Assembly (NCBI GenBank): GCA_029265075.1 | Contig: JAJUJZ010000016.1 | Coordinates: forward strand, 1 to 37,661 | Source: Gammaproteobacteria bacterium | GTDB lineage: Bacteria; Pseudomonadota; Gammaproteobacteria; Pseudomonadales; CAMLJR01 | Direction of reading: 5' to 3' | Length of the DNA stretch: 37,661 bases | Shown: piece by piece, positions 1 to 6,265 of the stretch | How the letters are laid out: the number at the start of each line of letters is the position of its first letter | Numbering within the stretch: position 1 is the first letter of the stretch | Notes under the pieces: generated by a model | Seen by the model: only the letters and a program-made list of their open reading frames with translations | Told to the model about the DNA's origin: nothing | The model's database searches: none | Translations under genes and position numbers: made by a program

Positions 1-141
1 GAAATGGTAATGCCGGGTGACAACGTGCAGCTGGAAGTGACGCTGATCGCTCCGATCGCGATGGAAGAAGGTCTGCGCTTCGCCATCCGTGAAGGCGGTC
101 GCACCGTCGGTGCTGGCGTCGTAGCCAAGATCATCGAGTAA
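1..141 (+). CDS. tuf: Elongation factor Tu, C-terminal fragment (5' truncated by window)
   Basis: Frame 1 reads [46 protein letters not shown], the EF-Tu C-terminus; located directly upstream of rpsJ. Confidence 0.97.
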
Positions 142-175
142 GCGATAGGTGCCTGCCCAGGTGGCGGGCCAACCG

Positions 176-203
176 AAAGGCGCCGTCCGCGGCGCCTTTT
201 TTT
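176..203 (+). terminator. Rho-independent terminator after tuf
   Basis: AAAGGCGCC-GTCCGC-GGCGCCTTTTTTT: GC-rich stem followed by a T tract. Confidence 0.9.
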
Positions 204-284
204 GTCGCGGTGACAGTAAGTTAGAGAGAGTAGAAGCGGCTGTAGCCAGGTTGGAAGGTAGTGAGACGGCCTCCCCGAATGTTG

Positions 285-313
285 TTGACAGGGTGAGAGT
301 CGGCCACTAAAAT
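285..313 (+). promoter_or_regulatory. Probable sigma70 promoter of the S10 operon
   Basis: TTGACA (285-290), 17-nt spacer, TAAAAT (308-313); about 80 nt upstream of rpsJ. Confidence 0.8.
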
Positions 314-393
314 GCCGCTTCCATTTTTCAGGGTGGGTCCGGCCGGAATAGCCGGGCTGCTCAATTTAAAATCGGTATTGGAGTGTTGGTCAA

Positions 394-705
394 GTGCAAA
401 ACCAGCGAATTCGTATTCGTCTAAAGGCCTTCGACCACCGCCTCATCGACGCGTCGGCGCAAGAGATTGTCGATACGGCCAAGCGTACCGGTGCCCAGGT
501 TTGCGGACCCATCCCGCTGCCCACCCGCACTGAGCGCTACACCGTACTCATTTCTCCGCATGTGAATAAAGATGCGCGTGATCAGTACGAAATTCGTACT
601 CACAAGCGTCTGCTCGATATTGTCGAGCCTACGGAAAAGACCGTAGATGCGCTGATGAAGCTCGATCTGGCGGCTGGTGTTGAAGTTCAGATCAGTCTGG
701 GCTGA
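394..705 (+). CDS. rpsJ: 30S ribosomal protein S10 (GTG start)
   Basis: [18 protein letters not shown]...; S10 family; operon position. Confidence 0.97.
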
Positions 706-735
706 TCAGGAAAGACTAAGCAGTTCCGGAATACA

Positions 736-816
736 GAAAGACCCGCTCAGGGCTTTCCCCCTGGGTTGTGTAACACGCGGCAGAGCGTGGCCATAGAGGG
801 TGAAAGCCCCGTACAC
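736..816 (+). promoter_or_regulatory. Structured rpsJ-rplC spacer containing a 23S rRNA-like hairpin (candidate r-protein autoregulatory site)
   Basis: GAAAG-a-CCC/GGGCTTTC hairpin at 736-757; GGGT-GAAA-GCCC hairpin at 798-809; GGCCATAGAGGGTGAAAGCCCCGTACAC resembles 23S rRNA domain I. Confidence 0.5.
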
Positions 817-830
817 TGTGAGGTTCTAGC

Positions 831-1472
831 ATGGCTATTGGTTTGGTCGGTCGTAAGGCCGGCATGACCCGCGTTTTCAATGACGACGGCGTCTCAATCC
901 CGGTGACGGTGATCGAAGTTGATCCCAATCGTGTCACCGCTATCCGCACCACGGAAGGCGAAGGCTACGACGCCGTTCAGGTCACCACCGGTACGCGCAA
1001 GGCGTCGCGGGTCACCAAGCCCGAAGCGGGTCACTTCGCCAAGGCGAGTGTCGCTGCTGGTCGCGGTCTCTGGGAGTTCCGTCTCGAGGGTGAAGAGGCA
1101 CCTGAGGTTGGCTCAGAGCTGACAGTGTCGCTGTTCAGTGCCGGACAAAAAGTTGATGTTACCGGTACCTCGAAGGGTAAAGGCTTCCAGGGTACCGTAA
1201 AACGCTGGAACTTCCGCACCCAGGATGCCAGTCACGGTAACTCTATCTCTCACCGCGTTCCCGGTTCGATCGGTCAGAACCAGTCTCCCGGTAAGGTCTT
1301 CAAGGGCAAGAAGATGTCGGGGCACATGGGCGCCGAGCGTGTCACCGTGCAGTCGCTCGAAATTGTGCGCGTAGACACCGAACGCAATCTGCTGTTGGTC
1401 AAGGGAGCAGTTCCAGGCGCGCCAGGTGGCGATGTGCTGGTTCGTCCTGCGGTCAAGCTGAAGAATTCCTGA
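831..1472 (+). CDS. rplC: 50S ribosomal protein L3
   Basis: [20 protein letters not shown]...; L3 family. Confidence 0.98.
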
Positions 1473-1483
1473 GGGGACGAGCA

Positions 1484-2104
1484 ATGGAATTGAATATTGC
1501 CAAGCCCGGCAACGACGGGGCGGCGGGTACTGTAAAGGTATCTGATGTCACGTTTGCGCGTGATTACAACGAAGATCTGGTGCATCAGGTCGTTACGGCT
1601 TACCTGGCGGGCGCGCGTCAGGGTACTCGTGCCCAGAAGACCCGCTCGGAAGTGAGCGGTGGCGGCAAGAAGCCGTTCCGTCAGAAAGGTACTGGTCGCG
1701 CTCGCGCCGGAACCATCCGTTCGCCGCTGTGGCGTACTGGTGGTACCACTTTCGCCGCGCGTCCCCAGGACCACAGTCAGAAAGTAAACCGGAAGATGTA
1801 CCGCGCCGCGCTGCAGGTCATCCTGTCTGAGCTCGCGCGTCAGGATCGTCTGGTGGTGGTCGAGGACTTCACGGTCGAGCAGCCGAAAACCAAGCTGCTG
1901 GTTCAGGCGCTGGGTCAGTACGGCCTCGACAACGTGCTGATCGTTGGCGAAGAAGTGACTGAGAATCTGTACCTTGCAGCGCGCAACCTTCACAAGGTTG
2001 ATGTGCGTGATGTGGCAGGCGTCGACCCTGTGAGCCTGATCGCCTACGACAAGGTCATGGTTACTGTGCCGGCCCTCAAGAAATTCGAGGAGATGTTGGG
2101 ATGA
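1484..2104 (+). CDS. rplD: 50S ribosomal protein L4
   Basis: L4 family motif [29 protein letters not shown]. Confidence 0.98.
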
Positions 2105-2397
2105 ACCCGGAGCGCATTTACAAAGTACTGCTGGGCCCGCACATTTCGGAAAAGGCTGCGATCAGCGCCGAGCGTGGCAACCAGGTGGTGTTCAAGGTTG
2201 CGCGTGATGCCAGCAAGCTCGAAATCCGCAAGGCGGTCGAGACGCTGTTCAAGGTCAAGGTGCAAGGTGTGCAGACCCTGAACGTGAAAGGCAAGGTCAA
2301 GTTCAACCGGTTTGGGCAAGTCAAAAAGCCGAGCTGGAAAAAGGCTTACGTTCGTCTGGAGCAAGGTCAGGATATTGACTTTGCCGTAGCGGAATAA
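2101..2397 (+). CDS. rplW: 50S ribosomal protein L23
   Basis: [20 protein letters not shown]...; ATGA overlap with rplD. Confidence 0.97.
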
Positions 2398-2413
2398 CCG
2401 GGGGTCAGGTCAG

Positions 2414-3238
2414 ATGGCAATTGTAAAAAGTAAACCGACTTCTCCGGGGCGCCGCTTCGCCGTACGTGTTGTAAACCCGGATCTCCACAAGGGCAAGCCG
2501 TACCGTCCGCTGCTTGAAAAGCAGAGCCGGACCGGCGGTCGTAACAATAACGGCCGGATCACGACGCGGCACGTTGGTGGCGGTCATCGTCAGCACTACC
2601 GCGTCATCGACTTCCGTCGTAACAAAGACGGCGTACCGGCTACGGTCGAGCGTATTGAGTATGATCCGAACCGCACGGCCTTCATCGCACTGGTGCTGTA
2701 TGCAGACGGCGAGCGTCGCTACATCATCGCGCCGAAAGGCCTGAAAGTGGGCGACAAGATCGAGTCCGGCGATGCAGCAGCGATCAAAAGCGGTAACACG
2801 CTGCCGCTGCGTAATATTCCGGTCGGTAGCACCATTCACTGCATCGAGATGAAGCCTGGTAAGGGCGCTCAGCTCGCTCGCAGCGCTGGTGCCTCTGTCC
2901 AGCTGGTGGCGCGCGAAGGGCAGTATGCAACGCTGCGTCTGCGTTCCGGCGAAATGCGCAAGGTGCTCGCTGAGTGCCGCGCGACTCTGGGTGAAGTGTC
3001 GAACAGCGAACACAGCCTGCGGAAACTCGGCAAAGCTGGCGCTCAGCGTTGGCGTGGCGTCCGTCCGACGGTGCGCGGTGTTGCGATGAACCCGGTTGAT
3101 CACCCGCACGGTGGTGGTGAAGGGCGTACCTCTGGCGGCCGTCATCCGGTTACGCCCTGGGGTGTGCCGACCAAGGGTTACAAGACTCGCAAGAACAAGC
3201 GTACGAACGATTTCATCGTTCGCCGTCGCACCAAGTAA
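2414..3238 (+). CDS. rplB: 50S ribosomal protein L2
   Basis: [14 protein letters not shown]...[18 protein letters not shown]...[10 protein letters not shown]. Confidence 0.98.
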
Positions 3239-3932: not shown

Positions 3933-4607
3933 ATGGGTCAGAAAGTACACCCGACAGGCATTCGCCTCGGCATTGTCCGCGACCACAACTCCATTTGGTA
4001 TGCCGGTCGCAAAAACTATGCCCAGCGCCTGATCAGCGATCTCGAAGTGCGGAAGTACCTCGAGGAGAGGCTTGGCAATGCGTCGGTCAGCCGCATCGTA
4101 ATCGAGCGCCCCGCGCAAACTGCACGGATTACGATCCACACAGCACGCCCCGGTATCGTTATCGGTAAGAAGGGCGAGGATGTTGATCGTCTGCGCAAAG
4201 ATCTTGCTGCGCGCATGGGTGTACCCGTTCAGATCAATATCGAAGAGATCCGGAAGCCCGACCTCGACGCCAAGCTCACGGCGATGAACGTTGCCCAGCA
4301 GCTGGAACGTCGCGTAATGTTCCGCCGCGCCATGAAGCGCGTGGTTCAGAACGCGCTTCGCCAGGGCGCGGGTGGTATCAAGGTACAAGTAAGCGGACGT
4401 CTGGGTGGCGCTGAAATTGCGCGCACTGAATGGTACCGCGAAGGTCGTGTTCCGCTTCATACGCTGCGTGCCGATATCGATTACGCAACGCACGAAGCCC
4501 ACACGACTTACGGTGTAATCGGCGTCAAGGTGTGGATCTTCAAAGGCGAGATCCTTGGCACCCGCGAAGCGGTAGAAACGAAAGCCGCCAAAGCGCCAGC
4601 TAATTAA
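3933..4607 (+). CDS. rpsC: 30S ribosomal protein S3
   Basis: [25 protein letters not shown]... Confidence 0.98.
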
Positions 4608-5947: not shown

Positions 5948-6265
5948 ATGCGTAAGATCAAGCGGGAGGACGAGGTAATCGTCCTCACTGGCAAAGACAA
6001 AGGCAAGCGCGGCAAGGTCACCAGGGTGCTGGCCGATGACAAGGTGCTGGTCGCTGGCGTGAACATCATCAAGAAACACCAGCGCCCCAATCCGCAGGCG
6101 GGCATCGCTGGCGGTATTGTCGAGCGCGAAGCTCCGCTGCACATCTCTAACGTAGCGATCTTCAACCCGACCAGCAACAAGGCAGACCGGGTGGGCTTCA
6201 AGATTCTGGAAGACGGCCGCAAGGTGCGCGTTTACAAATCCACCGGCGAAGAGATCGACGCCTGA
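5948..6265 (+). CDS. rplX: 50S ribosomal protein L24
   Basis: [22 protein letters not shown]... KOW motif. Confidence 0.97.

Follow-up and report, generated by a model that had tools for sequence, protein, structure and literature searches.

The rpsJ–rplC spacer of the S10 operon

The window, by which we mean the whole stretch of DNA that was analysed, comprises 37,661 nt of Gammaproteobacteria bacterium GCA_029265075.1 (contig JAJUJZ010000016.1), and all positions are numbered on its forward strand. It begins with the end of a gene for a translation factor (probably tuf) and continues into the S10 operon, in which a spacer of 125 nt (706–830) separates rpsJ from rplC. The remaining S10 and spc genes lie downstream of rplD, and rplX (L24) is found at 5948–6265 in the same gene cluster. 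The probable promoter at 285–313 would leave rpsJ with a leader of only ~75 nt. The relevant features are listed here by position and strand.

285–313, +: probable S10-operon promoter TTGACA-17-TAAAAT, near-consensus sigma-70 (11/12 consensus letters)
394–705, +: rpsJ (S10), GTG start, ORF of 103 aa
746–765, +: P1 hairpin, CUCAGGG (746–752) with CCCUGGG (759–765), immediately upstream of the mimic; both sides changed in L012, L264 and L017
750–757, +: GGGCUUUC, alternative partner of 802–809 in MFE folds, which would melt the H20-like hairpin
768–816, +: 49-nt mimic of the 23S rRNA H18 tip, H19 and H20 (E. coli 23S 295–343), matched by model R1 and the Rfam 23S model
768–772, +: closing helix (H18 tip), 5′ arm GUGUA, partner 812–816; two-sided changes in relatives
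774–789, +: H19-like hairpin, CACGC (774–778) with GCGUG (785–789); two-sided changes at 5/5 pairs
790–797, +: H19/H20 junction GCCAUAGA, invariant in the profile comparison
798–809, +: H20-like hairpin, GGGU (798–801), GAAA, GCCC (806–809); loop free to vary, stem unchanged in nearly all carriers
812–816, +: closing helix, 3′ arm UACAC; two-sided changes in relatives
820–823, +: rplC Shine-Dalgarno sequence GAGG, 3 nt 3′ of the mimic, read from the sequence; same spacing in relatives
831–1472, +: rplC (L3), ORF of 213 aa, proposed first repressed gene
1484–2104, +: rplD (L4), ORF of 206 aa, proposed repressor

A mimic of the 23S H18–H20 junction

The mRNA segment 768–816 mimics the H18–H20 junction of 23S rRNA in both sequence and structure. 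It aligns with E. coli 23S 295–343, a segment that comprises the tip of H18, H19, the H19/H20 junction and H20, without a gap over all 49 nt. Identity is 34/49 to E. coli 23S and 37/49 to the 23S consensus, compared with a maximum of 26 among 20,000 shuffles, and the 28-mer at 789–816, with at most 3 mismatches allowed, has a chance expectation of 0.00 in the window. The host 23S is not in its 90%-complete MAG; 23S sequences of relatives were used as the reference. The sequence-only reading, whose letters and coordinates all proved exact (spacer 706–830; GGCCATAGAGGGTGAAAGCCCCGTACAC, 789–816; GAAAGACCC, 736–744; GGGCTTTC, 750–757; GAAAGCCC, 802–809), had noted a likeness to E. coli 23S at 22/24 positions of its 789–816 segment. 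That count was correct, but the extent was understated, as the match runs 5′ to 768.

Searches in both directions led to the same site. When relatives were scanned as whole genomes, the Rfam bacterial 23S model matched the rpsJ–rplC spacer unaided in G037, G035 and G038 (E values on the spacers of 6.7e-12 at model positions 329–385, 3.5e-8 and 1.1e-6, respectively). Conversely, model R1, built from spacer sequences only, matched 23S exactly once per locus, at the site equivalent to the mimic, in 74/74 rRNA loci; it scored E=2.8e-13 in the window's own genome and E=7e-10 on E. coli 23S 295–343. Across 369 class-wide genomes, each match of model R2 that was examined was either genuine 23S or an rplC spacer, and because several of those outside the order are true 23S, the raw hit tallies are not counts of the mRNA element. 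With Rfam 15, no family exceeded its gathering score in the window and nothing relevant appeared up to E 10. A mobile or phage origin was considered and rejected, the core pattern having 0 exact matches in a viral collection. We found no description of this element in the open-access papers searched, and an earlier description elsewhere is possible.

The mimic adopts the same fold as the 23S segment, with a closing helix, an H19-like hairpin, a junction and an H20-like hairpin. Covariation in relatives supports this fold: across 46 distinct sequences, 98.3% of cells are paired, and two-sided changes occur in 8/14 pairs, namely all five of the H19-like hairpin and three of the closing helix. 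None of 500 shuffles attained any of five measures (0/500), and compensatory changes were also seen on an independent MAFFT alignment. The H20-like stem is uninformative in this respect because it hardly varies. The upstream P1 hairpin (746–752:759–765) varies between families with two-sided changes, reading CUCGGGG:CCCCGAG in L012, CUCGGAG:CUCCGAG in L264 and CCCCGGG:CCCGGGG in L017. In two loci, L014 and L175 (genomes G018 and G006), tens of nucleotides are inserted in the H20-like hairpin, with junction and stem intact. The minimum free energy of the spacer was uninformative (window z -0.55), and by nearest-neighbour energies alone the 23S-like junction is often not the minimum-energy fold, which may be what is expected of a protein-stabilised junction.

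Position-by-position comparison of the mimics with 70 distinct 23S sequences separated the letters that are retained from those that are not. The mimic keeps the AA at 299–300, the junction, the GGGU/GCCCC stem and the UAC. Constraint is lost at the apical loop of H19 (306–311) and at the H20 loop (329–330), two loops that are practically invariant in 23S. In several mimics, H19 is cut to about three pairs. Not all 23S-invariant positions are thus kept, which sets the mimic apart from genuine 23S and from an rRNA pseudogene. As an observation on the rRNA side, H20 has drifted in the 23S of G037 (L118, reverse strand 4055–4103; GCAGGUGAUAGUCCUGU), and the mRNA mimic of the same genome is still canonical.

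Distribution of the mimic and of the E. coli-type leader hairpin

To survey the order, the spacer was read in one or two genomes per family (f numbers are working labels for families). The element is present in 34/43 readable families, the match in f18 being borderline, and nine families are without it; among the named carriers are Marinobacter, Microbulbifer and Billgrantia. Scores peaked at 76.6 bits in f21, whose S10 protein, judging by its sequence, is of the Pseudomonas type. A second order also carries the element before rplC, in family f218, which has small (~1.3 Mb), streamlined, AT-rich genomes, and here the closing helix GUGUA:UACAC has been rewritten, for example as UUUUA:UAAAA in L205. 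In all carriers read, the element lies in the rpsJ–rplC spacer, and examined matches elsewhere are 23S. In nearly all of them its distance is 0–9 nt to the Shine-Dalgarno sequence and 11–21 nt to the start codon.

The mimic was not found in 42 loci of Enterobacterales and related groups, where rplC spacers are mostly 16–38 nt long. Other genomes without it are L096, L112 and those of families f17, f19, f22, f26, f29, f33, f34 and f40. L025 and L061 (Alloalcanivorax marinus) have spacers of ~71 nt without the mimic and with another conserved G+C-rich hairpin region, CUACGGGCGGUUCAACCGCGACAGG, which is possibly a different operator. L070 is a contig from a MAG labelled Pedobacter (Bacteroidota) with a gammaproteobacterial-looking rpsJ–rplC region, and is probably a case of contamination or mislabelling.

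We compared this distribution with that of the hairpin conserved in S10 leaders of the E. coli type, for which model R3 was built. All 36 held-out leaders, from genomes without the mimic (Enterobacterales, Pasteurellaceae, Alteromonadales, Idiomarinaceae and others), matched R3, one of them weakly. On the mimic side, R3 matched 0/33 loci, including 0/31 carriers, its sole match being on the wrong strand (E=0.42), and the hairpin was not found in window 1–3000. The two sites are therefore distributed in a complementary manner and appear to be alternative solutions to the same control. A review states that Pseudomonas does not conserve an L4 site like that of E. coli (PMC10931766). In L096 and L112, non-carriers outside the order, neither the mimic nor the E. 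coli-type hairpin was found, and control of the S10 operon is accounted for by neither site.

A putative L4 operator and its alternatives

Control of the S10 operon by L4 is a textbook feedback loop in E. coli, and L4 is the established regulator of this operon. We propose, at a probability of roughly 0.78, that the mimic is a putative intercistronic L4 operator that blocks rplC translation and replaces the E. coli attenuator. The suggestion that a 23S domain I mimic acts as an r-protein feedback site on rplC/rplD, put forward from the window alone, is the best-supported reading: the element is conserved and covarying, it lies at the rplC ribosome-binding site, and it occurs where the L4 site of the rpsJ leader is missing. 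Most likely, it is a decoy through which L4 would shut down its own operon when rRNA is scarce. rplD, the gene of the candidate ligand, lies within the controlled operon as the second gene downstream of the element. L4 in excess over available 23S rRNA would bind the mimic and stabilise or lock the junction at a distance of 3 nt from the Shine-Dalgarno sequence of rplC, so that 30S binding would be blocked. Loss of rplC translation would then reduce expression of rplD and of the coupled genes further downstream; any effect on rpsJ would be indirect. Given the position of the mimic next to the Shine-Dalgarno sequence and the lack of any terminator-like site in window 120–900, a translational step is the likeliest; intrinsic attenuation was rejected on the latter ground.

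We infer steric repression, coupling and L4 as the ligand, the choice of ligand following from the pattern of loop loss and from precedent. Stelzl and colleagues (2000) reportedly isolated a 53-nt fragment of domain I to which L4 and L24 bind simultaneously; if so, the mRNA segment corresponds almost exactly to a minimal site for L4. The same fragment could be read as pointing to L24, or to L4 and L24 together, acting through the same mimic in the same operator role, and rplX is in the same cluster. In the 50S subunit, moreover, G307 of H19 pairs with A330 of H20, a contact facilitated by L24 (PMC7049716). However, the loops joined with the help of L24 vary or are deleted in the mimic, G307 and A330 being jointly present in 70/70 23S sequences but only 23/45 mimics. 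Since the loops are free and the junction and H20 stem are kept, the selected feature would be the junction and stem rather than the L24-assisted loop contact. This pattern suggests a mimic that binds a protein, not a relic of rRNA, and makes L4 a better candidate than L24. L24, in addition, is not established as a regulator of the S10 operon, and we consider its involvement unlikely.

A further proposal was that two exclusive hairpins form before rplC, with 750–757 pairing either in an upstream hairpin or with 802–809 and thereby gating the mimic. Both pairings do exist computationally in the window, but a conserved switch is generally unsupported. At minimum energy the full spacer folds with 750–757:802–809, 5.9 kcal/mol below the fold that contains the 23S-like junction. 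A counterpart also dominates the computed folds of the near relatives L009 and L008, and in L008 two U-A pairs have become G-U with both sides changed. In contrast, the long-range pairing is partly broken in L261, where 6 bp are left, and has no counterpart in most carriers. P1 covaries, whereas support for the long-range alternative is confined to near relatives. Pseudomonas shows a similar energy gap without a pairing of this type, and adjacent G/C-rich hairpins cross-pair easily. A bistable switch thus lacks support as a general mechanism, and gating appears quite improbable; the pairing may be peculiar to this lineage, or may simply arise where G/C hairpins lie side by side. Still more doubtful is the idea of a portable copy of an early 50S assembly site, which would sense free L4 and L24 jointly and so read assembly state rather than a single protein, with 750–757 as an additional toggle in the clade of the window.

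An rRNA look-alike inside operon mRNA might instead recruit an RNase or a factor for rRNA processing or modification, and retroregulation through mRNA destabilisation is known for the S7 and S8 sites (PMC10931766). The location of the mimic at the rplC ribosome-binding site in every family, its distribution against the L4 leader site and the lack of a terminator-like site make such recruitment very improbable. Finally, despite the near-verbatim, collinear 49-nt match, a non-regulatory relic or gene-conversion copy of 23S is scarcely credible, as it is contradicted by compensatory changes in the helices, the fixed distance to the start codon and retention in streamlined AT-rich genomes; recent copying or gene conversion is ruled out because the mimic does not follow its genome's own 23S (in G037, 33/49 to its own 23S and 43/49 to that of G006).

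The proposed L4 operator resembles several known systems without coinciding with any of them. It shares with the E. coli S10 leader the operon, the likely repressor L4 and competition with 23S domain I. The E. coli leader, an autogenous attenuator and translational operator, however, precedes rpsJ and contains an intrinsic terminator but no obvious letter-by-letter copy of 23S. The present site follows rpsJ, lacks a terminator and reproduces the 23S junction almost verbatim. The S8 operator (rplE, spc operon) and the S7 operator (rpsL–rpsG, str operon) are likewise internal, intercistronic rRNA mimics; in both, a downstream cistron is blocked and the other genes are affected through coupling and retroregulation (PMC10931766). 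These are 16S mimics bound by S8 and S7, whereas the element described here imitates 23S domain I and belongs to the S10 operon. S15 and L1 r-leaders are also mRNA mimics of an rRNA protein site, those of S15 mimicking a three-way junction, but they involve another protein, another rRNA and another operon. The Archaeoglobi L4 r-leader candidate (Eckert and Weinberg 2020, PMC7247131) is a predicted L4 leader upstream of rplC–rplD; unlike the present element, it is archaeal, was rated borderline and has no listed rRNA resemblance. The r-leader table of the same paper holds no gammaproteobacterial rplC leader.

The L4 leader site has been reported missing in Pseudomonas, which raises the question of how the largest r-protein operon is balanced there, and an internal 23S junction mimic at rplC offers a concrete, testable answer for Pseudomonas and its relatives. 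The letters invariant in 23S that the mRNA has kept or dropped separate protein contacts from RNA tertiary contacts within 23S domain I. If the proposal is true, this would be a case of rRNA mimicry that is unusually clear at the sequence level, and would neatly exemplify how one regulator can switch to an unrelated operator in a new position.
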